Assembly: GCA_027483535.1 (NCBI GenBank)
Contig: JAIXUN010000003.1
Span: 620,001-684,000 of the forward strand
Direction of reading: 5' to 3'
Length of the DNA stretch: 64,000 bases
DNA from: a bacterium
GTDB lineage: Bacteria > Armatimonadota > Fimbriimonadia > Fimbriimonadales > Fimbriimonadaceae
The translations under genes were made by a program, and so were the position numbers. This document shows, one piece after another, positions 3,675 to 46,368 of the stretch; position 1 is the stretch's first letter, and each line of letters starts with the position of its first letter. The notes below the pieces were generated by a model. It had not been told where the DNA came from, searched no databases, and saw only the letters and a program-made list of their open reading frames with translations.

Positions 3675-3746
3675 GTGTGTATTGTGAGCAATCGGGGAGG
3701 TGCAAGGTCGGAACTATCCGTGTGTTTGCTGGGTATCTTCGGATGA

Positions 3747-4628: not shown

Positions 4629-5499
4629 TCGACTTTTCTTCGTTCTAGGGGAGACGTTCACCGCACTGCGACGAAACCTCGGCCTCGCCTTTGCCGCGAC
4701 CGGAACCGTCGCCGCGAGCCTCTACCTCCTCGGTGGGCTTTTCCTTGCTTACAGCGGTATCTCTCGATATGCGGATGGGCTCTCGGGTCGCTTTGAAATG
4801 CGAGTCTTCCTGAAGGACGGCATCACCGTTCCCCAAATCAAATGGACCGCCGAGAAGATTCGTTCTTTCGAGGGTGTTCGCCAGGTGAACTGGATTCCCC
4901 GCGACAAGGCCTGGGAGAAGTATTCGAAGGAGAATCCGGAGATCGCTCGGGGGCTCGAAAACCCGTTCCCGGACTCGTTCAAGGTCATCCTCAGCGATCT
5001 GAAGAAAGGCGACGAGGTCTCGGAGAGGATTGCCAAGCTCCCGGCGACCGATCCCGACGGGGGTGTTCAATACTTGCGCGACGAGCAAAATCTCATCGCG
5101 CAAGCTAAAGACGCCCTGAAAGTGCTGGGTGGGATGGTTGGAGGGCTACTGGCGACCATCGCCGCGGTTTTGATCTTCAACGCCATTCGCCTCACCGTTC
5201 TATCTAGACGAATCGAGATCCGGATCATGAAACTGGTCGGAGCGTCGTACGCCACGGTTTACACGCCTTTCCTGTTGGAAGGGGCGATTCAGGGAGCCCT
5301 GGGCGGATTGGTCGCAGCAGGATTATTGGCGCTAACCCATCGAACCATTGGCGAGGCGCTCAAGTCCTTCTCGGCTCTTTCTCAGCTTCCTTCTCTCCCG
5401 TACAACGATCTCACGTTGGCGCTTTCCGGAGCGGGCGCGTTTTATGGTGTTGTCTGCTCGGCGGCGGCACTCTACCGACTTCAACTTCGCTATCGCTAA
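4615..5499 (+). CDS. ftsX: Cell-division protein FtsX
   Basis: A 294-residue membrane subunit of FtsEX. It has a first transmembrane helix at residues about 22-45, an extracytoplasmic domain (about 46-165) beginning FEMRVFLKDGITVPQIKWTA as in other FtsX proteins, then three more membrane helices in the FtsX/MacB-type C-terminal permease region containing RRIEIRIMKLVGAS, a characteristic FtsX segment. The start may be ATG 4615 or 4621; both lie inside the end of ftsE. The stop codon overlaps the next ATG (TAATG). The order ftsE-ftsX-M23 hydrolase is the classical arrangement for the divisome hydrolase switch. Confidence 0.95.
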   Translation: MPMFDRLFFVLGETFTALRRNLGLAFAATGTVAASLYLLGGLFLAYSGISRYADGLSGRFEMRVFLKDGITVPQIKWTAEKIRSFEGVRQVNWIPRDKAWEKYSKENPEIARGLENPFPDSFKVILSDLKKGDEVSERIAKLPATDPDGGVQYLRDEQNLIAQAKDALKVLGGMVGGLLATIAAVLIFNAIRLTVLSRRIEIRIMKLVGASYATVYTPFLLEGAIQGALGGLVAAGLLALTHRTIGEALKSFSALSQLPSLPYNDLTLALSGAGAFYGVVCSAAALYRLQLRYR

Positions 5500-6683
5500 T
5501 GCGAAAAGTTCTCTTGCCGTCCTTGATTGTCTTTGCCCTCTTAGCGGGTGGGATATCTGGCGCGCAAAAGAAGCCGACCCTCCCTCCAAAGGGGTCGATT
5601 AACAAACTGCAGCAAGGTCTTAAGCAGACTCAGGCGAAGAAAGAGAAGGTCCTAGAGAAGCTTCAAGAGAAGCGCCAAGCCGCTACAAAGGTCAAGCGCA
5701 GCATCGGCGAGGTTGAGTCTCGCTTGGGGCAGGTGGTTGAAAAGCTGAGCGAGACAACCGACAGTCTGGACTCCGCGCGATACCGCCAAGAGCGAATCGC
5801 CACTGAACTGAAAGCTGCCGAGGCAAACCTAAAGAAGACCAACGAACTCGTTCGGAAACGATTGAAGCGGATGTACAAGCGGGGTCAGGACAACCTGTTC
5901 ACGGCCCTTCTCAGCAGTCGATCCACGGGCGATGTCGCGAGCCGCAAATATCTCATCGAACGGGTTGCGAAGAAGGATCGGGAGGTCTTTGAAACGTTCA
6001 AGGCTCAAAGGGCCGCAGTCGACCGTAAAAAGCGGGAGCAGGACGGCATCGTCAGCCGAATCGCCCGCCTCGCTTCGGATCAGCGCGACCAGCAGCGGGA
6101 GCTCGAATCTGCTCGCCGGGAGAAAGAAGATCTGCTGGGTGGACTTCAGTCGGAAATGGCCCAACTGCGGCGCCTGGCGGCACAGTTTGAGCGAGACGAA
6201 CGAATCATTGAAGGGCAGATTGCTGAGGCGATTCGACGCGCCCAAGAAGCGGCGAAGAATCGCAAACCGGGCGACAAATCCCCTCCGCCGATCAAGTTTT
6301 CCGGTCGTTTCGGTCGGCCGACTGGTGGTCCCATCACGAGCGGCTTTGGGTCGCGATTCCACCCAATCCTCAAGCGAAGACGACTCCACTCTGGGATCGA
6401 CTTTGGCGGAGGGTACGGCGCACCTGTTTATGCCGCCGCCGAGGGCACTGTCATATCGGCCTCAAGGCTGGGCGGATACGGCAATACGATCATCATCGAT
6501 CACGGATCGGGCATGTCTACCGTGTACGCCCACCTTTCAAGAATCCAGGTGGGTTCCGGGGCGCGGGTCCGACGGGGACAAAAGATCGGGGCGATCGGTA
6601 GCACGGGTCTGTCTACCGGACCCCACTTGCACTTCGAGATACGTCGGAACGGAAAGGCGATCAACCCGGCTTCCTACTTGTAA
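5499..6683 (+). CDS. EnvC-like murein hydrolase activator, coiled coil plus M23 peptidase domain
   Basis: A 394-residue secreted protein with a signal peptide ([21 protein letters not shown]). A long Lys/Glu/Gln-rich coiled coil runs from residues about 30-255, and a C-terminal LytM/M23 domain follows. The zinc-site motifs are intact: [17 protein letters not shown] (HxxxD) and [10 protein letters not shown] (HxH). The catalytic His is expected in [14 protein letters not shown], which contains YAHL. Intact zinc ligands mean that, unlike E. coli EnvC, it may itself be an active endopeptidase. It directly overlaps ftsX, so it is the likely periplasmic effector of FtsEX in septal peptidoglycan splitting. 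Confidence 0.92.
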
Positions 6684-28105: not shown

Positions 28106-30541
28106 TCAAGCCTGAAGAGTTAGGCAGTCTCGATAACTCACCGCGTTTTCGCCCTCCGCTTCCAGCGAGTCTCTTGTCTGACTGAGCACCACGCTTTCAA
28201 GTCCCTTCAGTGTATTTGTGAGCTGCTCCTGCAATCTGGCAGGGAGATCGTTGTCTCGTCCCCGACCGCGGCGCCTAAAGAGTGCCAGCAAACGAACCGC
28301 ATCTTCGTATCTACCCAGGCGGTATCGACAGTGCGCTAAATGGAGTAACGCGAACTGGTGATCGGAAAACGACTGGTGTTCCTCGAAGAGATCCAGGGCC
28401 ACCCGACACTCCTTATCTGCGGCCTCGATATCCCCACCAAGAGAACTGATCCTCGCAAGATTAAGTTGGTAGGTGGCAATGGCAAGCGGGCTCCCGATTT
28501 GCGCATAGCGGGGGATCAGATCTTGCAGAAGAGAGCGAGCCGTCGCGAGGTCGCCCGCTTCTTGCGAGCAGAAAACCATGTGCCCTTCGGTGTGACAAGC
28601 CCACAACGGCTCGTTCTGCGATCTCCACGCCGAAAGGGCCTTCTCCAAATGAAATCGAGCCTGTTCAACTTGAATACCGACCTCTGGATCACCGTCCAAG
28701 TACGAGGCTCCCAGGTACGTGGACGCATAGGCAAAGGCCCACGCATCCTCCGTTGGATCAGCAATCTCCAAAGCCTCCTTGAAGAGTTGAACACCCTTAA
28801 GCCCAAACCCCATGTTTCGAAACGCCGCGCCCGATCGCGCAAGTAGAAGCGCCCGAATCGAAGTGGGTAACTCAGAGGCCACGGAAAGCGCTTTTTCGAT
28901 TCGAGAGCGAAAACGATCCAGCATGCCCAAGTGCAGACAGCCCGTATAGCATCCGCAAACAAGTCTCGCGTAGTGTTCGTACTCACGGGCATCCCAAAGG
29001 ACATCGAAAGAGCGTTCCCATTCATGAGAGATCGACTCAAACCACAGAAGCTGCTTCGGCTGAAGGGGACCGATCATGCGAAAGGCATGGTGATAGAGCG
29101 CTTCAGCAACGATAGTTGCATGCCAGATTTCTCGCTTAGCTGAAGGCGGTTCTAGTTCGGAAAGAAAGTCGCGAATAGAGTCAAATGCGATCCCGACGTG
29201 ACGCGATTCGAGGCCGGGAGTCGTGCGGAGCCACCCCCCGGCGACCAATCGGGGCGACGATTCCAGATCTTCGCGCACCCAATCCACCGGAATATCCGAC
29301 GAGAAGAGATTGAGCCGGAGAAGAAACTCCTTCTCGACAACTCCCAGCCGATCCCAGCTCCAAGAGAGCACTTTGTGGATGGGAGAATCGGTCGATCGGA
29401 TCCTTTGCAGAAAGTTCTCTGGGGGAAGATGAGAGAGCTCAGTGGCGGCCCACCGAAGCGCCAGGGGCACCCGATCGAGTTCTTCAGTAAGGCTCTTCAC
29501 CTCCGGTTGGGTCCATTCTGAAAAGGCGCCGTTGCTGAGAACCATCATTGCCGTGAAGTAGTGAATCGCATCTTCCTCGGAGAGCGGACCCAGATTCACG
29601 GTGACCTCATTTTCGACCTCGCAAGAGAGTCGAGAGGCGGCCAGAACCCGAACGTGTGGGCAAACCGCCTGAATCCTTCCAAGCGCCTCGTACAGTCGTG
29701 TTCGGTCTGTAATCAGGTCAATACTATCGAGGAGAAGAACGACCTCCGGATACGAATCGAGAGTCTCTCTCACGTTATCGAACAGGCTTTGAGGGTGACT
29801 GACGATTTCAAGTGCTCGAGCAAGCAGGTTCAAACCAGGAACGTGCTCATCCATTCCGCTCGCGTCCAGCAAGATGCACGGGAGATCGGTTCGGTTAGCC
29901 ACCTTTCGGAGAAGGGCCGACTTTCCGATGCCACCGATTCCGGTGATCGTGATCCACGGAAGGTGGGTCCCTTCCAGTAGGGAGACAAGCTGGCTCAACT
30001 CACCGGTCCGTCCGAAGAACTCGTCTTCTTCCTCTAGCGGGGCGACTCGAAGCCGCGGAACCGGGAGAGATCCCTTACCGAGATCGGCGGTGGAAGCTCC
30101 CCAATCAAGGTTCCATTCATGAACCCAATCGTCTGGAATGCCGATCCCGATTGGGCAGTCGATGAGCGCCTGAAGGCGAGTTCGTGCGCGCGCAACCGAC
30201 CCGCTCGCGTCCTGGCGTTGAATGGTTCGATGCCAGAGGGACGCTTCTTCCCAGTCGGTCGACACCTCCGCGCCTAGCTCTACGATGTCTTGGCCCGTTG
30301 TATGGATTAGATTCGGATCGAGCTTCTTGACCAGCAAAATGGTTTGACGCAGGCTTTGCCTTGCCGCTGTGTCGTTTGTCTCTGGCCAAAGAGCTTCGCA
30401 TATCTGTGCGCGAGTCGCGACCCGCCGTCGTTGCCGAGCAAGGAAGAGCAGCAGCGCAGGAATTCGGGAAGTTCGAAATGATCGAACGACTTTCCCGTGA
30501 AGATGAACTTCTGGTACCCCGAAGACGTGCAACCGGATCAT
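28106..30541 (-). CDS. SARP/AfsR-like regulator: winged helix, STAND ATPase, TPR
   Basis: An 811-residue signal-transducing regulator. Residues 1-90 form an OmpR-type winged helix in SARP style (LHVFGVPEVHLHGKVV, ARQRRRVATRAQICEALWPE, AARQSLRQTILLVKKL). A linker is followed by a P-loop NTPase with Walker A ITGIGGIGKSALLRKV, Walker B EVVLLLDSIDLI and RVLAASRL, typical of STAND/NB-ARC ATPases. The last about 280 residues are helical repeats of the TPR type (LLARSGAAFRNMGFGLKGVQLFKEAL, ATYQLNLARISSLGGDIEAADKE). STAND regulators act as switches that oligomerise on a signal. No obvious target adjoins it. GAAGG precedes the ATG. Confidence 0.85.
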   Translation of the reverse strand: MIRLHVFGVPEVHLHGKVVRSFRTSRIPALLLFLARQRRRVATRAQICEALWPETNDTAARQSLRQTILLVKKLDPNLIHTTGQDIVELGAEVSTDWEEASLWHRTIQRQDASGSVARARTRLQALIDCPIGIGIPDDWVHEWNLDWGASTADLGKGSLPVPRLRVAPLEEEDEFFGRTGELSQLVSLLEGTHLPWITITGIGGIGKSALLRKVANRTDLPCILLDASGMDEHVPGLNLLARALEIVSHPQSLFDNVRETLDSYPEVVLLLDSIDLITDRTRLYEALGRIQAVCPHVRVLAASRLSCEVENEVTVNLGPLSEEDAIHYFTAMMVLSNGAFSEWTQPEVKSLTEELDRVPLALRWAATELSHLPPENFLQRIRSTDSPIHKVLSWSWDRLGVVEKEFLLRLNLFSSDIPVDWVREDLESSPRLVAGGWLRTTPGLESRHVGIAFDSIRDFLSELEPPSAKREIWHATIVAEALYHHAFRMIGPLQPKQLLWFESISHEWERSFDVLWDAREYEHYARLVCGCYTGCLHLGMLDRFRSRIEKALSVASELPTSIRALLLARSGAAFRNMGFGLKGVQLFKEALEIADPTEDAWAFAYASTYLGASYLDGDPEVGIQVEQARFHLEKALSAWRSQNEPLWACHTEGHMVFCSQEAGDLATARSLLQDLIPRYAQIGSPLAIATYQLNLARISSLGGDIEAADKECRVALDLFEEHQSFSDHQFALLHLAHCRYRLGRYEDAVRLLALFRRRGRGRDNDLPARLQEQLTNTLKGLESVVLSQTRDSLEAEGENAVSYRDCLTLQA

Positions 30542-31548: not shown

Positions 31549-31736
31549 GACGGTCTCAGTGTGCGAAGGGACCGTCAAAAATTCGTCACCACCGGCACGA
31601 ACAACCAACTCTGCCCTCTTTTTGCCCGCGCTTGCGCGGCGAAGAGGCTCCTCTGATAACTTCACCCCTCAAAACAGACGGGTACATTCATCTAGTACGG
31701 ATGGTCTGTAGAAGGCTTCCTTACCCGTCCGAGCCC

Positions 31737-33131
31737 ATGCTCTTTATCTCTACTACCCACCAACCGGCTTCGGACTTGGGCTACCTACTTCGAAAGAACC
31801 CGGCGAACCTTTACGAAGGCAAAACCGCGTTCGGAACCCTGAAGGTGTTCTATCCCGAGGTGTCAGAAGAGAAGACGACCGCAGCGTTTGTTGTGGAGAT
31901 AGATCCGATTGCGCTGGTGCGTCGAAAAGAAGACCAAGGGTCGGCAGAGCAGTACGTCAACGATCGTCCTTACACCGCAAACAGTTATGTCTCGGTGGGA
32001 ATCGCTGAAGCATTCGGATCAGCGATGAGCGGAGGGAGTAAAGAGCGGCCCGAGCTGGCGGAGACCCCGATTCCAATCTCGATCCGCATTCCGGTCTTGC
32101 GGGCAAAGAAGGGTGAGGACCTCATTCGCCGAATCTTCGAGCCACTCGGCTACCGGGTAGAGGTGACCGCGTTGCCGCTCGATGAGCAGTTCCCGGAGTG
32201 GGGCGAGAGTTTCTACTTCGACGTGTCTCTTCACGGCACTCATCGCCTCTGCGATTCGCTTCGACACCTGTACGTGCTTCTTCCCGTCCTCGACGAGAAG
32301 AAGCACTACTATATGGATAAGCAAGAGGTGGACAAGATCCTTTCAAAGGGTCAGGGTTGGCTTGCCGATCACCCCGAAAAGTCCGTCATCTTGCGAACCT
32401 CGCTCGGGCGAAAGCCTTCGCTGATGCGAGAAGCGTTCGAGCAACTCTCGAATGCCGAGCCGGAGTTCAAAACCCCCGATGAAGAAGCCTCTGATACCGA
32501 TGAGGCCACGAACCAGCCCGTCGAGCGCGCGCCTAAGAAGGTGACGCTCCACCGGCAACGCCACGATCGCGTGACCGAACTGGTTCGAGAACTCAAGCCG
32601 AAGTCCATCATCGACCTCGGCTGCGGAGAGGGCAAGTTCATTCGGAGCATCATTCCCATTCAAGGCATCGAGAAGATCGTTGGGTTGGAACTGTCTTACT
32701 ACACCCTCGAACGGGCGACGAAAATGCTTCAGTTGGAAGACGGCGGAGGGCGATACGGACACCGTGTCGAACTCATCCACGGGAGCTTGCTGTACCGAGA
32801 CGCGCGAACCGAAGGGTTTGACGTTGCGACCGTCATCGAGGTCATTGAGCACATGGAGGCTCACCGGCTCCCGGCGTTCGCGAAGGTGGTTTTCGGATAC
32901 GCCAAGCCCAAAACGGTGATCGTCACGACCCCCAACAGGGAGTACAACGCGGTTTACAACGAGATCGAATTGCGGCACGACGATCACCGATTCGAATGGA
33001 CTCGCGCCGAGTTCCAAACATGGGTGGATGAGGTCTGCGCACAGTACGGTTATCAGGCGGAGATAGAGGGGATCGGCGATTTGCACCCTGAATACGGTTG
33101 CCCGAGTCAGATGGCGGTGTTTAAGCGATGA
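31737..33131 (+). CDS. hen1: 3'-terminal RNA ribose 2'-O-methyltransferase Hen1 (bacterial)
   Basis: A 464-residue enzyme that methylates the 2'-OH at the 3' end of a cleaved RNA before ligation, protecting repaired RNA from renewed cleavage. The N-terminal domain (MLFISTTHQPASDLGYLLRK..NLYEGKTAFG.LKVFYPE) matches the regulatory domain of bacterial Hen1. The C-terminal half has SAM motif IIDLGCGEGKF and the Hen1-specific metal-site region VIEVIEHMEAHRLPAF with EVIEH, then VTTPNREYN and HDDHRFEWTRAEFQTWVDE. ATG 31737 is the family-typical start. It overlaps pnkp by 4 nt (ATGA). Confidence 0.95.
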   Translation: MLFISTTHQPASDLGYLLRKNPANLYEGKTAFGTLKVFYPEVSEEKTTAAFVVEIDPIALVRRKEDQGSAEQYVNDRPYTANSYVSVGIAEAFGSAMSGGSKERPELAETPIPISIRIPVLRAKKGEDLIRRIFEPLGYRVEVTALPLDEQFPEWGESFYFDVSLHGTHRLCDSLRHLYVLLPVLDEKKHYYMDKQEVDKILSKGQGWLADHPEKSVILRTSLGRKPSLMREAFEQLSNAEPEFKTPDEEASDTDEATNQPVERAPKKVTLHRQRHDRVTELVRELKPKSIIDLGCGEGKFIRSIIPIQGIEKIVGLELSYYTLERATKMLQLEDGGGRYGHRVELIHGSLLYRDARTEGFDVATVIEVIEHMEAHRLPAFAKVVFGYAKPKTVIVTTPNREYNAVYNEIELRHDDHRFEWTRAEFQTWVDEVCAQYGYQAEIEGIGDLHPEYGCPSQMAVFKR

Positions 33132-35653
33132 AGATCGTTGTTCCCGAGTTCTCGGTGGTGGTCGTTATCGGCACCAGCGGGTCCGGTAAATCGACATTCT
33201 GTCGAAAGCACTTTTTGCCGACGGAGATACTGAGCAGCGACGCTATTCGGGGGATGATCAGCGACGACGAGGATCGGCTGGATATCTCCACCGAGGCTTT
33301 TGAGACGCTGCATTTCATGCTGGAAAAGCGGCTCCAACTGGGTCGCCTAACCGTAGTCGATGCGACCAATGTTCAGAAAGAGGCGCGAGCCCCGCTGATC
33401 AAGATCGCGACAAAGTGGCACGCTATGAGGGTTGCCATATTCATTGACACGCCCGTTCCTGTTTGCGTGGAGCGGAACGTCCAGCGCGAGAACCGCCAGT
33501 TCGGATCGCACGTGATACGGAACCAACGAGCCGATTTTCGCCGAGCCCTAGGCGGGATTCGAAACGAACGGTGGCACAAGGTCTACACGGTCACGCCGGA
33601 GAATATTGACCAAGTAGAGATCGTTCGCGAACGAAGCTGGAGCCGCAATCCCGACGAACACGGTCCGTTCGATATCATCGGCGACGTTCACGGCTGCTAC
33701 GACGAGCTTCAGAACCTGATCACCGAACTGGGTTGGAAAACCGAGCCCGAGTTGCATCACCCCGAGGGTCGAAAGTTGTTCTTTGTTGGCGATCTGGTGG
33801 ATCGTGGTCCCGACCCCGTAAAGGTCCTGAACTTTGTGATGGATGCGGCGGAAGGTGGGAAAGCGATTTGCGTTCCTGGGAACCACGATATTCGACTGGT
33901 GAAGGCGCTCAAGGGTCAGCCGACCTCGACGGGTCACGGCCTTAGAGAAACCTTGGAGCAAGTAACTGCAGAACCGGAAGAGTTCCAAGAGCGGGTTCGC
34001 AAGTTCCTTCACGGTCTGGTGAGCCACCAGATTGTTGACGATGGAAAACTGTGCGTGGCCCACGCCGGGCTCCCAGCGGACATGCAGGGTCGAGGATCCC
34101 CCGCGGTTCGGGATTTCTGCCTGTACGGTGGCACGACGGGCGAGCGTGACGAGTTCGGTCTCCCGGTTCGCGCTCCTTGGGCCAAGGATTATCGAGGAAG
34201 CGCGTTCGTGGTGTTTGGACACACTCCCGTTCCTGAACCCGACCTGCACAACAACACGCTGAACATCGATACCGGGTGCTGTTTCGGAGGCCGATTGACG
34301 GCTTACCGGTACCCAGAAGGCGATCTCGTGAGCGTTCCCGCCAAAGCGGTTTACGCCGAGCCCGCGCGTCCTTTGGATCATGGCGTCTCGACGAACGAGG
34401 ACGACGACGACGTCCTGGACGTGGCGGAAGTTCTTGGTCGAAGGACCATCGAGACGAGCCTCGCGGGTCGAGTGACCATTCGAGAAGAGAACGCGATCGC
34501 GGCTCTGGAGGCGATGTCGCGGTTTGCGGTCGATCCTCGCTGGCTGATTTATCTCCCGCCAACCATGTCGCCGTGCGAAACGGCGTCTGTGGAGGGCTAT
34601 CTCGAATATCCAGATGAGGCGCTCAAGTTCTATAGAGACGCCGGAGTGAGCCAGGTTATCTGCGAGCAGAAGCACATGGGATCTCGGGCAGTTGCCGTGA
34701 TTTGCAAAGATGCGGACGCAGCCAAGAATCGTTTCGGCATAGCGACCGGAGAGATTGGATCCATCTACACGCGTACGGGTCGACAGTTCTTTGCCGATGG
34801 AGACACTCAGAATCAGGTGCTGAACCGACTTTCAAAGGCGATCGAATCGGCGGGGGTTTTCAGCGAACTGGAATCTGATTGGGTGCTGCTGGACATGGAA
34901 GTCATGCCTTGGTCTGCCAAAGCGGTTGGACTCATTAGCAGTCAATACGGTCCGGTCGGCGCGGCTTCTGAGCACTATTCCAAGGTCCTGAAAGAAGCGC
35001 TGAGTGCGCCTCATCTGAACTCCGTGAGCGGCGTTCAGGCACTGGCCGAGCTAGCTGAGCGGAAGCTGGACTCGGCGCAAAAGTATCGAGCGGCCTATCG
35101 CAACTACTGCTGGACGGTGAACTCGATCGACGATTACAAGTTCGCCCCGTTCCATTTGCTCGCTTCGGAAGGGAAGGTTCATAGTGACCGGTCGCACTTG
35201 TGGCACTTAGAGATGCTCGGCAAGATTGCCGATGAAGACTCTCAAATTTTGATTCGGACCCCGTTCCGGGTGGTCGACTTAGAAGATGAGATCGCTTGCC
35301 AAGCCGCAACGGATTGGTGGCTCCAGCACACCGGATCGGGAGGGGAAGGCATGGTGGTAAAACCGCTGAACTTCACCGAGTTCAACAACGGTCGGGTGAT
35401 TCAGCCCGCGGTGAAATGTCGGGGTCGCGAGTATCTGCGGATCATCTACGGGCCGGAGTATCTGGAAGACGCAAATCTGAGTCGCCTGCGCCGTCGCGGA
35501 CTCTCGCGCAAGCGCTCGCTTGCTCACCGGGAATTTGCGCTGGGGATCGAGGCTCTGCATCGGTTTGTGGATCGCAAGGCGCTGCGGAGCGTTCACGAAT
35601 GCGTGTTTGGTGTCCTTGCGCTTGAGAGTGAACCCGTCGATCCTCGATTGTAA
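33128..35653 (+). CDS. pnkp: Polynucleotide kinase-phosphatase-ligase Pnkp (bacterial RNA repair)
   Basis: An 841-residue three-domain RNA end-healing and sealing enzyme. The kinase domain (about 1-175) has P-loop VVVIGTSGSGKSTFCRK. The metallophosphatase domain (about 180-400) has FDIIGDVHGCYDELQN, FVGDLVDRGPDP, VPGNHD and FGHTPV. The C-terminal nucleotidyltransferase/ligase domain has the nucleophilic Lys in CEQKHMGSRAV and further motifs LLDMEVMPW and EGMVVKPLN. In characterised systems the ligase activity depends on heterotetramer formation with Hen1, in agreement with the 4 nt gene overlap. Length and domain order are normal. Confidence 0.96.
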   Translation: MKIVVPEFSVVVVIGTSGSGKSTFCRKHFLPTEILSSDAIRGMISDDEDRLDISTEAFETLHFMLEKRLQLGRLTVVDATNVQKEARAPLIKIATKWHAMRVAIFIDTPVPVCVERNVQRENRQFGSHVIRNQRADFRRALGGIRNERWHKVYTVTPENIDQVEIVRERSWSRNPDEHGPFDIIGDVHGCYDELQNLITELGWKTEPELHHPEGRKLFFVGDLVDRGPDPVKVLNFVMDAAEGGKAICVPGNHDIRLVKALKGQPTSTGHGLRETLEQVTAEPEEFQERVRKFLHGLVSHQIVDDGKLCVAHAGLPADMQGRGSPAVRDFCLYGGTTGERDEFGLPVRAPWAKDYRGSAFVVFGHTPVPEPDLHNNTLNIDTGCCFGGRLTAYRYPEGDLVSVPAKAVYAEPARPLDHGVSTNEDDDDVLDVAEVLGRRTIETSLAGRVTIREENAIAALEAMSRFAVDPRWLIYLPPTMSPCETASVEGYLEYPDEALKFYRDAGVSQVICEQKHMGSRAVAVICKDADAAKNRFGIATGEIGSIYTRTGRQFFADGDTQNQVLNRLSKAIESAGVFSELESDWVLLDMEVMPWSAKAVGLISSQYGPVGAASEHYSKVLKEALSAPHLNSVSGVQALAELAERKLDSAQKYRAAYRNYCWTVNSIDDYKFAPFHLLASEGKVHSDRSHLWHLEMLGKIADEDSQILIRTPFRVVDLEDEIACQAATDWWLQHTGSGGEGMVVKPLNFTEFNNGRVIQPAVKCRGREYLRIIYGPEYLEDANLSRLRRRGLSRKRSLAHREFALGIEALHRFVDRKALRSVHECVFGVLALESEPVDPRL

Positions 35654-36958: not shown

Positions 36959-37870
36959 TTAGAACTGCTCGAACTCTACGATCTCAGTCTTGCTGCCCGC
37001 AAAACCGAATCGTACGAAGCGGTCCAGACCTGCTCCTCCGACTGCCTTTGCATCGAATCGGGCAGTCACACCTCTCGCAGTGAGGTTGTCGTTACCGGCG
37101 TCGAGATTGACTTCAAGATTAGACAGTGCGGAAACCGTCGTAAGGTTCACTACGTCGTTTCCGGCACCCGTGCCAACGATGACATCGAAAGTAGCCGCGA
37201 GGCTGCTGATCGTCACTCGGTCTGCACCTTCATCGGTTAGAACTGCAGCAGAACCGCGAACTGTGAGATTGGTCAGGTTCACCACGTTGTTGCCTTTGTC
37301 GCCTTGCAGGTTCAGGCTTCCACCAATCGTGCTCGAAGAAACGTCAAACCGATCGTTCAACTCACCGCCAATAACGTCCAGGTTGAATCCAGTGGTGAAT
37401 TGCTGAGCGCTGAGAGTGTTCGCACCGACACCAAGGTCAAGTAGAACGTCTCCCGTTGCCGAGGATGAGCTGAAAACGGCCCGATCGTTACCCTCTTCAC
37501 CCTTCATGCTCACATTTCCGAAGCTGGATGCCCGGGTGAGAGTAAGTGTGTCGTCACCCTGGCCACCCTCCATGTTGATGTCGCCAAGGTTACCGATGTT
37601 GATGAACGAAATCCGGTCGTTACCGCCGTCCATAAATGCCGATACGTTCACGAGGGAGGGGGTGAGGAAGGTCACGCTCGGGAGTCCGTTCACTAAGGTC
37701 CCATTGAGACCTAGGACCCGGACGCCACCAGTGATTTGGACGACTCGAATGTCGTTGCTGAAGGCGTCACCGTAGATGTTGAGGTCACCGCTCGAGAGCT
37801 CAGCAGAGACGTTGTTGCTCAAGGCAACAGAAGCGAGGAGGCAACCGGCAAGTGCAAAGAAGTGTTTCAT
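36959..37870 (-). CDS. Secreted Asp/Gly-rich repeat protein (degenerate RTX/beta-roll-like)
   Basis: A 303-residue exported protein (signal MKHFFALAGCLLASVALSNNVSA). The mature part is a series of about 20-residue units with an acidic Gly-Asn-Asp turn followed by a hydrophobic pair: DGGNDRISF, EGGQGDDTLTL, GEEGNDRAVF, GDKGNNVVNL, GTGAGNDVVNL, DAGNDNLTA, GGAGLDRFV. This resembles the RTX nonapeptide GGxGxDxUx but with irregular spacing, so a beta-helix or beta-roll that may bind calcium is an inference. It is divergent from the ECF sigma gene, with starts 108 nt apart, and is a candidate target of that sigma factor. Confidence 0.78.
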   Translation of the reverse strand: MKHFFALAGCLLASVALSNNVSAELSSGDLNIYGDAFSNDIRVVQITGGVRVLGLNGTLVNGLPSVTFLTPSLVNVSAFMDGGNDRISFINIGNLGDINMEGGQGDDTLTLTRASSFGNVSMKGEEGNDRAVFSSSSATGDVLLDLGVGANTLSAQQFTTGFNLDVIGGELNDRFDVSSSTIGGSLNLQGDKGNNVVNLTNLTVRGSAAVLTDEGADRVTISSLAATFDVIVGTGAGNDVVNLTTVSALSNLEVNLDAGNDNLTARGVTARFDAKAVGGAGLDRFVRFGFAGSKTEIVEFEQF

Positions 37871-37964
37871 TTTCGTTTCCGTATTCCCTTTGAGTGGGAT
37901 CAATATCGAAGGGGCGACGTCTGACGGAACAGTGACAACATCTTTTCAAAAAATTGTCGAAAGG

Positions 37965-37970
37965 TAGAAT
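37965..37970 (+). promoter_or_regulatory. -10-like hexamer for ECF sigma operon
   Basis: TAGAAT ends 7 nt before ATG 37978. An AAAGG lies further upstream at 37960-37964 and is too far for a normal ribosome site. No clear -35 is visible. Confidence 0.4.
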
Positions 37971-37977
37971 TTCCACA

Positions 37978-38544
37978 ATGTTCAAGCTGGGAAAGAGCTC
38001 CCCACACTGGAATGACAGCCCGCTTGTTCGCAGAGCTCTGGCAGATGACGGTCACGCCTGGGCTGAGATTGTAGAACGGTATTCAGCCTACGTTTACGGA
38101 TTGCTTAGGTCTACGGGATTGCCAGAATCGGAACAACCCGATGCTTTCCAATACGTTTTCATAGAACTGTTCAAGGCCCTGCCAACCCTGAAGAACACCG
38201 ATGTTTTGGCTCCATGGATTCGCCAGACAACGATCCGCAAGGCGATTCGTCTTCGAAACGAGACTGCAAAGCTCACCGAACTCGAAGACGCAGAAACGAT
38301 TGCCGACGTTTCGCAATCCGAAGAGATAGAAGCAAGAGAGGTTCAGCTTCTGGTCCGCGACGCCGTGTTGTCCCTGAAGGAACATTGCCAAAGGCTTATA
38401 CAGGCTCTGTTTTTTGAAGAGGAGCCCAGGTCCTACGCCGAGATTTCAGCAGAGCTAGGATTACGGGAGGGCAGTATGGGTAACACCAGACTCCGGTGTC
38501 TGGACGCTCTCTCGAAAGCTCTCAAAGCGCGCGGCGTAATATGA
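37978..38544 (+). CDS. ECF-type RNA polymerase sigma factor
   Basis: A 188-residue group IV sigma factor with regions sigma2 (residues about 22-90: WAEIVERYSAYVYGLLRSTGL, DAFQYVFIELFKALPTL, LAPWIRQTTIRKAIRLRNE) and sigma4 (about 125-185: VRDAVLSLKEHCQRLIQALFFEEEPRSYAEISAELGL, EGSMGNTRLRCLDALSKAL). The GSMGNTRLRCLDAL helix corresponds to the DNA-recognition GTVKSRLSRARxxL of other ECFs, with unusual residues. It directs transcription of a restricted set of genes when released from an inhibitor. It overlaps the TPR-CHAT gene by ATGA, so sigma and protease are made together. No classical transmembrane anti-sigma gene is adjacent. Confidence 0.92.
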   Translation: MFKLGKSSPHWNDSPLVRRALADDGHAWAEIVERYSAYVYGLLRSTGLPESEQPDAFQYVFIELFKALPTLKNTDVLAPWIRQTTIRKAIRLRNETAKLTELEDAETIADVSQSEEIEAREVQLLVRDAVLSLKEHCQRLIQALFFEEEPRSYAEISAELGLREGSMGNTRLRCLDALSKALKARGVI

Positions 38545-41084
38545 AAATCGAAGAATGGCTTAGCGGGCTTTCCGGCAGGCCAAAACTGCCGCCGAGGAAC
38601 CTTCGAACGCCCGATACCGTCGGGCTCCTCATTGAACACGGGATGGGAGCGATCCGCGGCGACGTTATAAAAGCGGGTCTGATTGCGCGAAGCGCGGTTA
38701 AGCTCGCATCTACTCTGCGGATCCCTTCTCTTGAGGGACAGGCTGTGCGACTGCTCGGGCACACTTTTTTGTTGAGCGATCGCCCGAGGGATGCAATTAG
38801 GCGCTACGAGCGGGCAAGAGAACTGTTTGGGAAGGATCAAGTAGAGCGTGCAAACACTAGCGTAGCACTCATACAAGCGCTTGGATACGTAGGAAAGTAT
38901 TCACAAGCTGAATCTACTGCATCAGAGGCGATTGCCACTTTCTCAGAGGTGGGCGATCGATTTAGGGAGGCCAGAGTCCGGGCGAACCTAGGCAACCTTC
39001 TCCATCGACAAGACCGACTCTTGGAGGCGACACAGCAGTTTGAGAAAGCCTATCCCGTTCTCGTAGAGTTCGGAGTTGAAGCTGATGCTGCAATCGTCGC
39101 GCACAATTTTGCGGTCTGTTTAATGTCGCAACTCGAATTTGATAGAGCCGAGGCACTCTTCAACCATGCGTTGGGGTTCTTTTTGAAGACTGAACAAGAA
39201 CTCCTCGCTTACGAAGTTCAACTCAACCAGGCTTATCTCCTTGGAAGACGAGGTCAACTGCTCGAATCGTTAACACTTTATAGAAGTCTTTTGGACCGTC
39301 TTCCAAGTGCAGCGGGCCTGAAAATTGCCCACTGCCTACTGGACCAATCTGATTTCATGCTCAACGCTGGGCTCTTTACAGACGCCAGCCACGCGGCGCG
39401 TAATGCCCGAGCACTTTTTGAAAGTGCCAACGCTCGGCTGGAAACGGGAAAGTGCTACCTGATAGAGTCCGTCGCCGCATTTCGTCGCGGCCATGTCCAA
39501 AACTCGATGGAGTTGCTCGTCGAAGCACAATCTCGTTTGCGGTTCGAACGTAGCTTGACCTGGTTGGCGTTGACGGAACTCACCGCCGCAGAGTTGAACG
39601 ACAGGTTGGGGAATTTGACCCAAGCGAGATCGCACATTGATCTTGCCCTCAAGCTTGAGCCTTCGGCTGAAAGAATCCCATTAGTACGCAGAGCCGCAGT
39701 CGAGCTTGCCATTCGAGATGAAGATTTTGATGCAGCTGAAGGACTCCTTCACATCGACCAATTCCCCGATCTTCACGCCTTGTTCCACCGAAAGTTAGGA
39801 AAGCCGCACTTTGCGAGAAAGTTTGCCGTAGATGCTTTGCGCGAGTACGACTTAACCCGCGATCGGTTGGGTTCTTTAGGTCTTCGAAGAGCGCACGCCG
39901 CCGCCCACGAACAAGCTCTCCGAGAATGCTTTCGATCTCTCGATACTTCTGCAGAACGGCTGAGTGTGGTCGCACGCCTCAAGGATCAAGGCTTGAGCGA
40001 ACTCATTCGGGAAACCGGCGAAACACGACGGGAGGCGACATTTCTGCAAACTGAGCATGAACCCGAAGCGGTGCGGCTGTACCGTGAACAGTTGACCCTA
40101 ACCTATCGCCCGCTGGGAGAAGACGGGGCCGGTTTTGAGGTGGAACCATGCTCTCAATTCGTTGAGCTCTTTGCGGACGAGGGGCGCCTGTTTGCATTTT
40201 TGATTTCGTCGAGAGGTGTGACGGAGGTAGACCTCGGGTCAATTGCGAACTTTCAGACGGCGATGCAATTCTTCCACCTTCATCGCGGTAGGCGGACTCC
40301 CGGAGGAGAAAGACTTACGGAGAAGGCCCTGACGCAAATCATGCACCTCTTTGAACCTGTGCTTGGGTTGGAGATAGAGGAATTGATCGTTGGGCGAGAA
40401 GGAGTGGTTGGCGCCATACCATTTCATGCCTTGCCCTTTAACGATGGCAGTCTCATAGAAAGTCGTCGCGTTAGGTTCGCCCCAAGTTTCTCCGCTTGGA
40501 GAGCCATCAACGGGCGCAGTCCCAGAACGGGGAACGGTAGTGCCATTCTTGGTTTCGCAGACCAAAACGCGCCGAAAATCGAGGAAGAAGTTGAGGTGGT
40601 CGCTCGTCTGATGGGAAGGAAGCCAACACGAAAGTTCGACCGGGTCTCCGATGTGCTAACTGGAGTGGATCATATTCATATCGCAGCCCACGGCATTGTT
40701 AGGGAAGACCTCCCGTTGTTCAGCGCTATGAGCCTTGGCGAGTCCCGATTTACCGTCCTGGAGGTACTACAGATGAACTTGGCAGCAAGATTGGTGGTAC
40801 TCAGCGGTTGTTCGACGGGGGTTTCACTGACGGGCGAGGCATTTGAGGCGCAAGGCTTTATCGAATCCTTGCTTGCCTCTGGCTGTCAGTCTGTTGTCGC
40901 GTCTCTTTGGGAAGCTGCCGATCAACCTACTCTTGACTGGATGACTCACTTCTATACCGCTCTCCAGACCCAATTTCCCTACGATGCGTACCAAACTGCC
41001 TGTGTCAATACTCGCGACTCTTGGCCTCATCCAAGCGATTGGGCCGCGTTTGCCTTTGCAGGTCTCGATAAAAAAGTGTCCTGA
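38541..41084 (+). CDS. TPR-CHAT protease (caspase-like)
   Basis: An 847-residue protein. Residues about 60-470 are tetratricopeptide-like helical repeats (QALGYVGKYSQAESTASEAIATF, ARVRANLGNLLHRQDRLLEATQQFEKA, ANAR.LETGKCYLIESVAAF). The C-terminal about 280 residues form a CHAT domain of the caspase/separase clan. The catalytic dyad is visible: His717 in DHIHIAAHGIV and Cys757 in VVLSGCSTG, followed by the conserved GEAFEAQGFIESLLASGCQSVVASLWEAAD. No signal peptide, so it acts in the cytoplasm. It sits between an ECF sigma gene (4 nt overlap) and an anti-sigma-like gene, and is a good candidate for proteolytic control of the sigma factor. Confidence 0.92.
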   Translation: MKIEEWLSGLSGRPKLPPRNLRTPDTVGLLIEHGMGAIRGDVIKAGLIARSAVKLASTLRIPSLEGQAVRLLGHTFLLSDRPRDAIRRYERARELFGKDQVERANTSVALIQALGYVGKYSQAESTASEAIATFSEVGDRFREARVRANLGNLLHRQDRLLEATQQFEKAYPVLVEFGVEADAAIVAHNFAVCLMSQLEFDRAEALFNHALGFFLKTEQELLAYEVQLNQAYLLGRRGQLLESLTLYRSLLDRLPSAAGLKIAHCLLDQSDFMLNAGLFTDASHAARNARALFESANARLETGKCYLIESVAAFRRGHVQNSMELLVEAQSRLRFERSLTWLALTELTAAELNDRLGNLTQARSHIDLALKLEPSAERIPLVRRAAVELAIRDEDFDAAEGLLHIDQFPDLHALFHRKLGKPHFARKFAVDALREYDLTRDRLGSLGLRRAHAAAHEQALRECFRSLDTSAERLSVVARLKDQGLSELIRETGETRREATFLQTEHEPEAVRLYREQLTLTYRPLGEDGAGFEVEPCSQFVELFADEGRLFAFLISSRGVTEVDLGSIANFQTAMQFFHLHRGRRTPGGERLTEKALTQIMHLFEPVLGLEIEELIVGREGVVGAIPFHALPFNDGSLIESRRVRFAPSFSAWRAINGRSPRTGNGSAILGFADQNAPKIEEEVEVVARLMGRKPTRKFDRVSDVLTGVDHIHIAAHGIVREDLPLFSAMSLGESRFTVLEVLQMNLAARLVVLSGCSTGVSLTGEAFEAQGFIESLLASGCQSVVASLWEAADQPTLDWMTHFYTALQTQFPYDAYQTACVNTRDSWPHPSDWAAFAFAGLDKKVS

Positions 41085-41120
41085 TCGCAATATGTTGCAC
41101 CCCTTGTAGGAAGAACACCG

Positions 41121-41672
41121 ATGAACAAGCCAACTCGTGAACAAATCATCGATTACGCACGCGGTCTCGCCGGACCTGAAGTGTCAAAAATGGTCGAATC
41201 AGACCCTGCTTCTGTCAGTGAGGCAGAGGCCTTTCGATTAGTGTTTCAAGCGGGGAGAGAGCCAGCTCCGGAAATGTGGATGCTCCGGGCAAAGGCACTT
41301 CTGCCAGCACAGGATCGCACGATCCCCTTGCTTTTTGGGCAACTGAGACCCGCGCTTCAAGGGGCAACGGGTGTTAGAGCGGGTGCGCCTGCGCCTGGAA
41401 CATACTCCTTTGATTTTGACGATGCAACCGTTGACGTACGCCTTCAACTGGATGCCACGGAGGGCAAGTTGGTTGCCCATGGTGTTCTAGAGCGCCACGG
41501 AATTTCTGAAACGTCTCTGTCAGAGATTCGGGTTGGAAATGGCGAGGAATGGACCGGATCTTGCGATGAAGATGGCCAGTTTGTTCTTCATCTAGACAAG
41601 ACTCATACAATCAGATTCCATGATTTAAATCAACAAAAGGTGCTTGCAATTGAGGTCCCTCATGAGAACTAA
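41121..41672 (+). CDS. Small anti-sigma-like protein, candidate CHAT target
   Basis: A 183-residue soluble protein, no signal peptide or transmembrane helix. The N-terminus (REQIIDYARGLAGPEVSKMVESDPASVSEAEAFR) has the rhythm of zinc-type anti-sigma N-termini (dE.l..Ya.G.l...Ea..vE.hl) but lacks the His/Cys zinc ligands. A linker (PLLFGQLRPALQGATGVRAG) precedes a beta domain (VDVRLQLDATEGKLVAHGVLE, DEDGQFVLHLDKTHTIRF) resembling the transthyretin-like domains that end similar ECF-cluster proteins. The role as sigma inhibitor is an inference from layout. It follows the CHAT gene by 36 nt and overlaps the subtilisin start by 11 nt. Confidence 0.78.
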   Translation: MNKPTREQIIDYARGLAGPEVSKMVESDPASVSEAEAFRLVFQAGREPAPEMWMLRAKALLPAQDRTIPLLFGQLRPALQGATGVRAGAPAPGTYSFDFDDATVDVRLQLDATEGKLVAHGVLERHGISETSLSEIRVGNGEEWTGSCDEDGQFVLHLDKTHTIRFHDLNQQKVLAIEVPHEN

Positions 41673-42981
41673 GTCACTTATCTTTTTTAGCGTGCTTGCA
41701 TTGAGCGCCGTTTCGTTGGCGCAGCAGAGATATATACTGCGGTATACCGAAAGCGAACCTCTTTCGACATTTCTGAATAGGTATCACCTGAGCTTGGAAC
41801 GAAAAGTTCTAAATCAAGATATTTATTCCGTCTTCGATATAAAGGGCAGGAACTCAGCAGCCCTTGTCCAAGAGATTTCGAATAATTCGGATGGTGACGT
41901 GTCCATTGAGGTCGATCAAACCGTTCGACTTCCCATCTTTGATTTTCAACGAAATGAGACTGCTGGAAGAACTTCTCTTCTCACGTCTTTCAGACAATCT
42001 AGGATAACCCGGTTTTTTGGCTCCGAAGTTCCCGAGGGCTTCGTCAGACAGCGGGCAGTATCTCAGACGTATGCGGCACCCTCTTGGACCATTCATAGGG
42101 GTGGATCGGGACTCGTTGCCATCGTTGATACGGGCGTCGATTTTTCTCACAATGCCTTACGAACGGCGCTGGTACCTGGGATTGATCTCGTTACCAGAGG
42201 TGCGAGCGGGTCGGAGTTAACGGGTCTTCCCGCGAACGTTCTTGCCAATATCAATCCAACGACAATTCCCCTACTTCTCCGTGATTTTGAGCATCTATCA
42301 CGTGGTCATGCACCCGCATGGGAAAGGTCAGTCCGATTGAATTCTGCCTTTGGACAAATACCAAAGGGTCTTGGACACGGGACAATGGTGGCAGGAGCAG
42401 TGCGCCTTGTAGCCCCTGAAGCTCGAATATTGCCTATAAGAGCGTTTTCGCAGAACGGTCAGGGCCGGCTTTTTCACGTGATTGAGGCCATCCATCTTGC
42501 AGAGCAGCGCGGGGCTAAAGTGGTGAATCTCTCACTCAACACCTATGTATATTCTCCCGAGCTAGAACGTACCGTTGAAGAGGTTTCAGATCGAGGAGTT
42601 ATCCTCGTAGCGTCTTCTGGAAATGATGGACTGACGAATCCAATGTCTTACCCAGCAAGATTCAAGAAGGTAACCAGCGTGGCGTCGGTTACTGCTCTGA
42701 ACACGCGGAGTGCGTTTAGTAATGCGGGCGTAGATGTAAGTTGGGTGAGTGCTCCAGGTGAGGGTCTGTACTTACCCTTCCCTGGCCAGCGCTATGCGGG
42801 AGGATGGGGAACGTCCTTTGCTGCTCCGCTGGTTTCTGGGCTGGCGTCTCGACTCTTTAGTGTAAAGCCGGATGCAACCTACAGTGACCTCCAGAGTAGC
42901 CTTGGTAAATCAACTCCTACGAATGATCCTGATTTGGGTCAAGGTGTGCTCAATGTATTCGAATCGTTGAGTGGATGGTAG
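41662..42981 (+). CDS. Secreted subtilisin-family serine protease (S8)
   Basis: A 439-residue protease with a signal peptide (MRTKSLIFFSVLALSAVSLAQ), an N-terminal pro-region of about 110 residues (RYILRYTESEPLSTFLNRYH.., an inhibitor-I9-like fold) and a complete catalytic domain. The triad is Asp156 (IVDTGVDFSHN), His239 (GHGTMVAGAVRLVAPEARI) and Ser385 (GTSFAAPLVSGLASRL); oxyanion Asn lies in VASSGNDG. It ends the sigma/CHAT operon and its start overlaps the anti-sigma-like gene by 11 nt. It would act outside the cytoplasm, unlike the CHAT protease. Codon use is more AT-rich than in the flanking genes. Confidence 0.93.
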   Translation: MRTKSLIFFSVLALSAVSLAQQRYILRYTESEPLSTFLNRYHLSLERKVLNQDIYSVFDIKGRNSAALVQEISNNSDGDVSIEVDQTVRLPIFDFQRNETAGRTSLLTSFRQSRITRFFGSEVPEGFVRQRAVSQTYAAPSWTIHRGGSGLVAIVDTGVDFSHNALRTALVPGIDLVTRGASGSELTGLPANVLANINPTTIPLLLRDFEHLSRGHAPAWERSVRLNSAFGQIPKGLGHGTMVAGAVRLVAPEARILPIRAFSQNGQGRLFHVIEAIHLAEQRGAKVVNLSLNTYVYSPELERTVEEVSDRGVILVASSGNDGLTNPMSYPARFKKVTSVASVTALNTRSAFSNAGVDVSWVSAPGEGLYLPFPGQRYAGGWGTSFAAPLVSGLASRLFSVKPDATYSDLQSSLGKSTPTNDPDLGQGVLNVFESLSGW

Positions 42982-43727: not shown

Positions 43728-44105
43728 TTAGTCCGGCAGAAGCACAACGCTCTCTTGCTCGTTGGGATCGGTTCGAGCAAGGATAGCGACGGCCCGAGAG
43801 TCGGTGGGATTGTAAGGACGATGCGGCACCCCAGCCGGAATGTAGACGTAGTCCCCTGCCGAAACACGATCGACATGTTCCATGTTGGGACCGTGCGTGA
43901 ACTCGGCGGTGCCTTCGAGCATGTAGATCGCCGTCTCGTGCGATTCGTGATAGTGAGCTTTGGCGGAGGCTCCGGGTGGCATCACCAGCATGTGCATGCA
44001 GATGCCTTCTGATCCCGCCGATTCGGCGGAGATGCCGGAAAAGTAGTCCAGCCCTTGCTTCCCGTGGAACGGATCAGAGCTCCGGATGATTCGGCAAGCC
44101 TTCAT
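43728..44105 (-). CDS. Cupin-domain protein
   Basis: A 125-residue single-domain cupin. Motif 1 is present as GASAKAHYHESHETAIYMLEGTAEF (HxH-type ligands and Glu) and motif 2 as GDYVYIPAGVPHRPYN (G-D...P.G..H). This fits a metal-binding cupin used as a dioxygenase, sensor or sugar-isomerase-like protein; the substrate is unknown. The minus-strand TAATCT lies 6 nt before its ATG. Its promoter region is shared with the divergent TPR-thioredoxin gene. Confidence 0.88.
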   Translation of the reverse strand: MKACRIIRSSDPFHGKQGLDYFSGISAESAGSEGICMHMLVMPPGASAKAHYHESHETAIYMLEGTAEFTHGPNMEHVDRVSAGDYVYIPAGVPHRPYNPTDSRAVAILARTDPNEQESVVLLPD

Positions 44106-44111
44106 GTCGGC

Positions 44112-44117
44112 AGATTA
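44112..44117 (-). promoter_or_regulatory. -10-like hexamer for cupin gene (leaderless type)
   Basis: TAATCT on the minus strand, 6 nt before the ATG at 44103-44105, without a Shine-Dalgarno. Confidence 0.45.
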
Positions 44118-44164
44118 CCGAAGCGATGAGTTGGAGGAATTCTATCAGCCTCGGCCAACCGTGT

Positions 44165-44170
44165 TAGACT
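44165..44170 (+). promoter_or_regulatory. -10-like hexamer for TPR-thioredoxin gene (leaderless type)
   Basis: TAGACT, 5 nt before ATG 44176; no ribosome-binding sequence between. Confidence 0.4.
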
Positions 44171-44175
44171 GCCGC

Positions 44176-46368
44176 ATGAATCGCATCGCAGCACTGATTG
44201 CTTCGCTCCCGATTGCTTGCGTTGCATTTGGGCAAGTCAATCCAAGCTTTGGTCACTCCCACTTGGGATCGGCGTTCGATACCGGGCTGCGATCGAAACC
44301 CTGGAAGTTCGAGGGCATCGGCAACTCGCCATTCCCCATTTCCACGAAGAACCCGGAAGTTCAAGCTTGGTACGACCAAGGCAACGCCCTTCTCCACAAC
44401 TTTTGGTTTGAAGAGGCTGAACGCACTTTTCGGTGGTGCCTCAAGCTGGAACCAGAAAACGCAATGGTCTACTTTGGCCTTGCGCGATGCGGTCTCAACC
44501 TGTTCTCGTCGACCCCCTACCCCGGCCCCGAGCTAACTCGGTCCAAGCAATTTTTGAAAGAGGCCGTGAAGCGCAAAGGCTCGGTAACTGAGCGAGAACG
44601 CCTTTACATAGAAACTTGGGACGCCGCATGGGCCAAATCGGGCGAGGAAACGAGCAAGGAACTGGTGAAGCACTTAGAAGCGCTTTGCTTGAAGTATCCC
44701 GACGATATTGAAGCCAAGTGCCAACTCGCCTTCTTCAACATGGGCAAGGGGAGCGCGCTCGCCAATGAGTACATGATTCAGCAGGTGCTTAAGGTGAATC
44801 CGCTCCATCCGGGAGCGCATCACGCGCGCATCCACAACTGGGACGGCGAGAACGGGAGTCAGGCTCTGGTGAGCTGCGAGCAGTACGGTCGAATTGCGCC
44901 CACTTCAGGTCATGCCAATCACATGCCCGGACACATTTATTCCGGCATCGGCATGTGGCATGAAGCCGCGATCGCTATGGATAGCGCGACCCGTGTTGAA
45001 CTGCGACACATGACGGAGCGCATGGCGTTCCCTTCCGAAAGTTGGAACTACCCCCACAATCGAGACTACTTAAGCTACATCCAGGAGCAACTCGGCAAGG
45101 CGGACGCCAGCCTCGCCGGAAGCCGAGACATTCTGAATGCTCCCAAAGATCCGACCGTCCCGACCTCCCAGTATCCAGCGATCTTCCCTTTCACTCGGGC
45201 GTTGCTGAAGTTCGGAATGTGGGAGCGCATTCTTGATGAGAAGACCTGGCCCGCGGGCTTGGAAGAGCAGTGGATGGTGTTCAAACTCGCCGCTCAGGCC
45301 ATTGCCCATGCCGAATTGGGTAACAAAGAGGCCGCGCGAGAGACGTTTGAACAAATTGGGGCGGGTCTAAAGGCAATGATTGCCGCCGAGGTCGCAAAGT
45401 TGCCCGACCAAGCCGACAAGATTCGAAAAGACATCGAAGACAACATGCCTATCCTATTCAGAATCGCTGAGGCGAAGGTGTTGACTGCGGAAGGGAAGCG
45501 GCTGGACGGTCAGCGCATATTACTGGAATTAGCCGAAAAAGAACGCGTGGTTCGCGAGAAGGGATCGTTTGCCAACGACCCCCCTGTCGACCCCTGGCCG
45601 GCACTTCGGTTGGTGGGCGATATGTTGCTTTCCAACGGAGACCTAAAGGGCGCGGCGGATGCCTATGAGCAAACGCTTAAGAACGTCCCGAACGATGCCT
45701 GGAGTTTGGCGGGCTTAGCGAAAGCCCATCACCGATTAGGGAACCAGGAGCAAGCTTCCCGGTATGCGGCGAGGTTCTTATCGGTTTGGAGCGGGGCCGA
45801 CCCTGATCTTCAGTTGAAAAAGGAGATATTGGCGCTCAACCTAAACGTAGAGCCGAAGAGCGAGACCCCTAAGCCAGAGCGTGCATACAGCCCTGCCTCT
45901 TTGGACGCTCTGGGTCCGAGCAACTGGCAACCATTCACTGCTCCTGATCTCGACTGTCTGGACGTCAACGGCAAGCGAGTCCGGCTAGCGGATTTCAAAG
46001 GGAAGAACGTCCTGATGGTGTTCTATCTCTCCGACCAGTGCGTGCACTGCGTCGATCAGTTGACCGCCATCAACAAGCGGATCACCGAGTTTTCAGACCT
46101 CAATACGGTGGTGCTGGGCGTCAGTTCTGCGAAGCCTGCGACCAACAAACAGTCTCTGAAACTTGCTCCGTTTTCCATCAAGTTGCTCTCGGATACGAAT
46201 CATTCGAACGCGCGGAGATTTGCAAGCTACGACGACTTCGAGGAAATGGAACTGCACTCCACGATCTTGATCGACGGCTCGGGCCGGGTTCGGTGGAAGA
46301 AGACGGGCGGCGACCCCTTTACGGATATCGACTATCTCATCAAAGAGATCAATCGATGGCAAAAGTAA
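44176..46368 (+). CDS. Secreted TPR protein with C-terminal thioredoxin-like domain
   Basis: A 730-residue exported protein (signal MNRIAALIASLPIACVAFGQ). Residues about 60-120 and 420-560 hold TPR-like helices (YDQGNALLHNFWFEEAERTFRWCLKLEPENAMVYFGLARC; DAYEQTLKNVPNDAWSLAGLAKAHHRLGNQEQASRYAARF). The last 150 residues are an AhpC/TSA-type redoxin: DLDCLDVNGKRVRLADFKGKNVLMVFYLSDQCVHCVDQLTAI with active-site CVHC and later the cis-Pro region expected after STILIDGSGRVRWKKTGGDPF. It resembles extracytoplasmic peroxiredoxin/TlpA-like proteins of unknown partner. Confidence 0.85.
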   Translation: MNRIAALIASLPIACVAFGQVNPSFGHSHLGSAFDTGLRSKPWKFEGIGNSPFPISTKNPEVQAWYDQGNALLHNFWFEEAERTFRWCLKLEPENAMVYFGLARCGLNLFSSTPYPGPELTRSKQFLKEAVKRKGSVTERERLYIETWDAAWAKSGEETSKELVKHLEALCLKYPDDIEAKCQLAFFNMGKGSALANEYMIQQVLKVNPLHPGAHHARIHNWDGENGSQALVSCEQYGRIAPTSGHANHMPGHIYSGIGMWHEAAIAMDSATRVELRHMTERMAFPSESWNYPHNRDYLSYIQEQLGKADASLAGSRDILNAPKDPTVPTSQYPAIFPFTRALLKFGMWERILDEKTWPAGLEEQWMVFKLAAQAIAHAELGNKEAARETFEQIGAGLKAMIAAEVAKLPDQADKIRKDIEDNMPILFRIAEAKVLTAEGKRLDGQRILLELAEKERVVREKGSFANDPPVDPWPALRLVGDMLLSNGDLKGAADAYEQTLKNVPNDAWSLAGLAKAHHRLGNQEQASRYAARFLSVWSGADPDLQLKKEILALNLNVEPKSETPKPERAYSPASLDALGPSNWQPFTAPDLDCLDVNGKRVRLADFKGKNVLMVFYLSDQCVHCVDQLTAINKRITEFSDLNTVVLGVSSAKPATNKQSLKLAPFSIKLLSDTNHSNARRFASYDDFEEMELHSTILIDGSGRVRWKKTGGDPFTDIDYLIKEINRWQK

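Follow-up and report, generated by a model that had tools for sequence, protein, structure and literature searches.

An ECF sigma factor, an anti-sigma homologue and a caspase-like protease form a conserved gene set that suggests a proteolysis-gated sigma circuit in Armatimonadota

In the searchable literature, a single rare CRISPR subtype, type III-E, is documented to place a sigma factor under a caspase-like CHAT protease: its TPR-CHAT protein Csx29 cleaves Csx30, which inhibits CASP-sigma (PMC10028731). A protease that cuts an anti-sigma factor also frees a sigma factor in the CalpL-CalpT-CalpS relay of type III CRISPR systems, although CalpL is not a TPR-CHAT protein but a protease of the Lon type whose SAVED sensor responds to cA4, and no exported protease is known to take part (PMC11417357, PMC12751052). 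A caspase-superfamily peptidase is likewise linked to an ECF sigma gene in TRADD-N/EACC2-caspase neighborhoods that include a DUF1822 TPR protein. These neighborhoods differ from the locus described here in domains and partners, and the passages that describe them mention neither a CHAT gene nor one for a zinc-type anti-sigma factor or an S8 protease (PMC8195603).

The window that we analyzed is a stretch of 64,000 nucleotides (C4:620001-684000) from a 3.77-Mb genome in four contigs. Like type III-E Craspase (PMC10028731), it encodes together a TPR-CHAT protein, a putative inhibitor and an ECF sigma factor. Four open reading frames, all on the plus strand at 37978-42981, specify an ECF-type sigma factor of 188 residues (37978-38544), a TPR-CHAT protease of 847 residues (38541-41084), a soluble anti-sigma factor homologue of 183 residues (41121-41672) and a subtilisin-type (S8) protease of 439 residues (41662-42981). 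The sigma and CHAT genes overlap by 4 nucleotides (ATGA, 38541-38544) and the last two genes by 11 (41662-41672), and the sigma factor and the 183-residue protein are encoded in one operon with the CHAT gene between them. A preliminary description of the locus had given the same coordinates, single direction and overlaps, all of which are borne out by the open reading frames. Absent from that description, and also belonging to the locus, is a divergent gene on the minus strand (36959-37870) for a secreted protein of 303 residues with a signal peptide and G/N/D-rich repeats. The 107-bp intergenic region that it shares with the sigma operon (37871-37977) likely holds divergent promoters.

We consider it moderately likely that this locus encodes a self-contained, proteolysis-gated sigma circuit, in which CHAT cuts the anti-sigma factor and the freed ECF sigma factor controls exported proteins. 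In the resting state, the soluble 183-residue protein would hold the sigma factor by means of its N-terminal helices. A cytoplasmic signal received by the TPR part of the 847-residue protein would unleash CHAT, which would cut the anti-sigma factor, probably within a flexible linker that joins the helices to a beta-sandwich. The freed sigma factor would then transcribe its own locus and other genes, among them those for the exported subtilisin and for the secreted protein encoded divergently, and the output would be a response at the cell surface or outside the cell. Sequence comparisons support the component identities, their joint conservation, the invariant catalytic residues, the likely export of the S8 protease and the solubility of the anti-sigma homologue. 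Sigma binding by the window's copy, cleavage by CHAT, sensing by the TPR part and the choice of sigma targets are inferred, the final steps of the chain from the operon logic and the precedent of Csx29 cutting Csx30 (PMC10028731).

The 188-residue protein qualifies as an ECF sigma factor of the sigma-70 family, with regions 2 and 4, through TIGR02937 (65.1 bits against a cut-off of 42.9, E 5.7e-18); its Sigma70_r2 match, at 23.5 bits, is slightly below the Pfam cut-off of 24, and its r4_2 match is also below the respective cut-off. The 847-residue protein matches TPR_12 and carries a CHAT (caspase-like) domain at residues 603-841 (40347-41063; PF12770, 119.9 bits against a cut-off of 24, E 1.9e-34), with His717 in the stretch IHIAAHGIV and Cys757 in LSGCSTG. 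In the S8 protease (Peptidase_S8, PF00082, 116.5 bits, E 1.9e-33), Asp156 lies within IVDTGVD, His239 within GHGTMVAG and Ser385 within GTSFAAP, so that the dyad and the triad named in the preliminary description are both present in the translations. The triad is invariant among the 37 proteins checked. Nearly all S8 relatives begin with a hydrophobic, signal-like stretch, which in the window's protein appears as a signal peptide of about the first 21 residues; export, as originally proposed, is therefore likely.

All 38 proteins that cover the CHAT dyad retain both His and Cys, despite an overall identity of only about 20% among the CHAT proteins checked. This invariance argues against a scaffolding role, in which general proteases would turn over the anti-sigma factor while TPR-CHAT holds it together with the sigma factor and does not cut. 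TPR domains often bind proteins, and an alignment of the linker stretch reveals no clearly conserved cleavage motif, as a scaffold would allow, but the unchanged dyad makes this explanation very improbable in our judgment. A search of the genome returned just two CHAT proteins, one from each of its two copies of the operon (see below). An 811-residue TPR protein encoded on the minus strand at 28106-30541, whose N-terminus appears AfsR/SARP-like by eye, aligns with the TPR portion of the CHAT protein profile and is not one of these two.

Pfam and TIGR-type profile scans assign the 183-residue protein to no family of its own, and we attribute a Pfam match to BT_MCC_alpha (17.1 bits against a cut-off of 31) to chance. 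Four observations identify the protein through its relatives. First, relatives encoded in the order sigma, anti-sigma, CHAT, S8 often carry C-x(n)-HX3CX2C, while others elsewhere in the phylum carry HX4CX2C; a motif of the HX3CX2C type is the hallmark of zinc-type anti-sigma factors. Second, when profiles are compared, the window's type aligns with these zinc-motif relatives (hhalign 97.3%, E 1.9e-11). Third, the 12 partial matches that we examined, which align with the N-terminus of the profile only, are without exception ordinary short anti-sigma proteins with HX3CX2C, most of them with a hydrophobic segment, and their genes directly adjoin ECF sigma genes. Fourth, the best PDB sequence match of the family profile, and the sole one at E<0.5, is RsiW (E 0.0096). 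In its homologous helical domain and the ECF sigma gene nearby, the protein agrees with class I of the zinc-type anti-sigma factors (ZAS). Judged from these comparisons it is, by descent, a soluble anti-sigma homologue, in agreement with the anti-sigma-like character first ascribed to it, and the window's copy presumably still binds sigma.

Class I ZAS proteins such as RsiW and RsrA share with this family the helical N-terminal domain, the HX3CX2C motif of many relatives and a gene beside that of an ECF sigma factor. In contrast to them, the window's protein is soluble, has a C-terminal beta-sandwich and lacks the zinc ligands, and its release is proposed to proceed through a cytoplasmic caspase-like protease rather than through membrane proteolysis or redox chemistry. 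The HX3CX2C motif is absent from the window's copy and from all its same-order relatives in the alignment, and the loss of these ligands makes a zinc-thiol switch unlikely there. Because a sequence check of the family finds no strong transmembrane stretch, membrane-based proteolysis is unlikely as well.

The predicted structure of the window's protein comprises a helical anti-sigma domain at residues 1-60 (41121-41300), with helices at 6-13, 19-27, 29-44 and 51-59 and a pLDDT of about 88-96 over residues 1-40. The linker, at residues of about 61-93 (41301-41399), is a candidate cleavage region given its low confidence (pLDDT <50 at residues 65-90) and the alignment. A C-terminal beta-sandwich domain (41400-41669) follows, with strands at residues 94-167 predicted at moderate confidence and the domain as a whole modelled poorly. 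The model of a relative has the same order of parts: a helical N-terminal domain, a linker of low confidence and a beta-sandwich, the last predicted confidently. Structural matches of this sandwich to Ig/CBM domains reach a Z of about 5 only, and the likeness may reflect no more than a common arrangement; Foldseek and VIA-align searches with the relative's model returned no meaningful match to the whole protein.

The preliminary description had proposed to judge its own reading by whether the gene order recurs. Profile searches over the class and the phylum Armatimonadota, with the 183-residue family as bait, and a reading of the neighborhoods of full-length matches yielded 52 further loci. 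Because the full set shares a strand in 44 of these, arranged in either of two orders, the association is far beyond chance and the gene order is widely conserved. The order sigma, anti-sigma, CHAT, S8 accounts for 36 of the 52 loci, and the window's order of sigma, CHAT, anti-sigma, S8 for 8. Contig ends truncate another 5, and the remaining 3 have the anti-sigma, CHAT and S8 genes without a co-directional sigma gene, which is adjacent and divergent in two and was not detected in one. Members of the set are spread over several families of the phylum, and three genomes of the same genus have the window's order, with a CHAT identity of about 42%. The distribution within the genus is patchy. The host genome itself contains a second, diverged operon (C1:2221000-2236000) in which a relative of the 183-residue protein lies between the sigma and CHAT genes, followed by S8. 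In trees of each of the four genes, the two orders are separated by a single change, which is consistent with one rearrangement and with joint inheritance of the four genes.

These conservation data also bear on how the anti-sigma factor might be released. It could be freed with no proteolysis at all, through a ligand, a redox change or a change of conformation, CHAT being a downstream effector protease that sigma induces and that acts, for example, on other cell proteins. In RsrA-like proteins a zinc site of the type retained by many of the relatives works as a redox switch; the CHAT gene lies within the operon and would be co-expressed with its partners; and CHAT and caspase proteins on cyanobacterial plasmids adjoin each other rather than annotated anti-sigma genes. 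We nevertheless regard this possibility as rather unlikely, given that the zinc site is missing from the window's copy and from all its same-order relatives, which nevertheless retain every gene of the set and the invariant dyad. Moreover, TPR-CHAT genes recur beside sigma/anti-sigma pairs whose anti-sigma factors are of two other designs. Within a related family of the order, a sigma factor and a 300-residue anti-sigma factor, membrane-anchored at one locus (L041, 3234-7916) and apparently soluble at another (L064, 5783-10158), are encoded beside TPR-CHAT and without an S8 gene. With a different anti-sigma factor and no S8 protease, CHAT may act otherwise in that family, and the anti-sigma factor of the window's lineage, encoded behind CHAT and without a zinc motif, could itself have changed its role.

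Among 113 genomes of the class, 8 possess the divergent gene for the 303-residue secreted protein, each as a single copy, and in all 8 it adjoins a sigma-CHAT operon of the window's type. At 14 loci of the other type (sigma, anti-sigma, CHAT, S8), a different secreted family of about 125 residues is encoded divergently beside sigma. These neighbors point to exported proteins as sigma outputs, and the 303-residue protein is likely either a sigma target or a substrate of the S8 protease. Within the shared intergenic region, TGACA/TAACA-like and TANNAT-like elements recur in the window and four aligned relatives, and in one more by eye; as a promoter motif they are suggestive, coming from few relatives read without statistics.

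The surroundings of the operon are ordinary chromosomal genes, according to a family scan of the nearest neighbors and reading by eye. They include FtsE/FtsX-, YidC/Jag- and DnaA-like genes (sequences judged by eye), a Pnkp-like RNA ligase at 33128-35653 (PF16542) and a TPR-thioredoxin protein at 44086-46368. At 31632-35653, a 499-residue reading frame overlaps that of an 841-residue kinase-phosphatase-ligase (PNKP_ligase, 2.3e-166) by 4 nucleotides, and the two look like a Hen1-Pnkp RNA-repair pair.

Such a setting speaks against the defence role that the preliminary description had entertained, in which infection would activate CHAT and the released sigma factor would switch on suicide or defence genes. 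Csx29 and other CHAT or caspase proteins do work in defence (PMC10028731), the related neighborhoods of ECF sigma and caspase genes are proposed to be conflict systems (PMC8195603), and the patchy distribution within the genus would suit an anti-phage or programmed-death system. However, cell-division, dnaA-like, yidC-like and Hen1/Pnkp-like genes surround the locus, the trees fit joint inheritance of the four genes, and the outputs resemble exported proteins. No strong match to defence families was obtained: PADLOC, with a library lacking cut-offs, returned no system, giving only a generic subtilase match and weak matches to BovA and IetS, and the best match of CHAT was to BovA at 23.7 bits. 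We therefore consider a defence function improbable.

A sigma circuit gated by CHAT would have proteolysis of an inhibitor as its proposed switch in common with type III-E, and the preliminary description had called it a CRISPR-free relative. The absence of CRISPR components near the locus stands, with no CRISPR-like array at 15000-64000 (direct repeats of >=20 bp spaced within 120 bp) and no gRAMP/Cas7-11 among the nearest neighbors scanned, which belong to other families. The comparison is also a fair analogy in logic, whereas the word relative is too strong. Against the Csx29 model NF041237, which has a cut-off of 300, the window's CHAT protein reaches 20.7 bits and aligns over the CHAT part only; Csx29 entries in the PDB match it weakly, over the same region. 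Its inhibitor is a homologue of zinc-type anti-sigma factors that has no Csx30 match in the PDB profile search, and the locus adds two components, the exported S8 protease and the secreted protein encoded divergently. By analogy, then, the system resembles Csx29/Csx30/CASP-sigma in its logic and is not a member of type III-E.

The four-gene set is conserved and apparently undescribed so far. In the open-access literature searched, CHAT occurs with ECF sigma and anti-sigma factors only in work on type III-E; the main ECF classification may already include a group with CHAT genes. If the proposed circuit is real, a conserved CRISPR-free version, with two divergent copies in the host genome and members in several families of the phylum, would show caspase-like proteases to be ordinary bacterial transcription switches. 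The CRISPR version could have been assembled from such a circuit, and CHAT with its anti-sigma factor would offer a tractable two-protein assay.

Viral contigs yielded no relative of the CHAT protein, and phages no match to the 183-residue protein. Plasmids gave only partial CHAT matches, without an annotated sigma gene in five sampled neighborhoods, and no match to relatives of the 183-residue protein. It is possible, though we hold the idea tentatively, that CHAT-gated ECF sigma circuits form a general signalling class across phyla, of which Csx29/Csx30/CASP-sigma of type III-E is one instance captured by CRISPR. On a conjugative Nostoc plasmid (NZ_CP117771.1:145500-154200), genes for a sigma-like protein, recognized by eye and without a sigma profile match, a DUF1822 protein and CHAT lie in a row reminiscent of the neighborhoods described in PMC8195603. 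In the actinomycete Nonomuraea gerenzanensis (Actinomycetota; NZ_LT559118.1:5029990-5041291, positions 1010-6380), genes for an S8 protease without an obvious signal peptide, an ECF sigma factor, a relative of the 183-residue protein (E 2.4e-9 against the family profile in a single-sequence test) and TPR-CHAT are adjacent, in a different order from that of the window.
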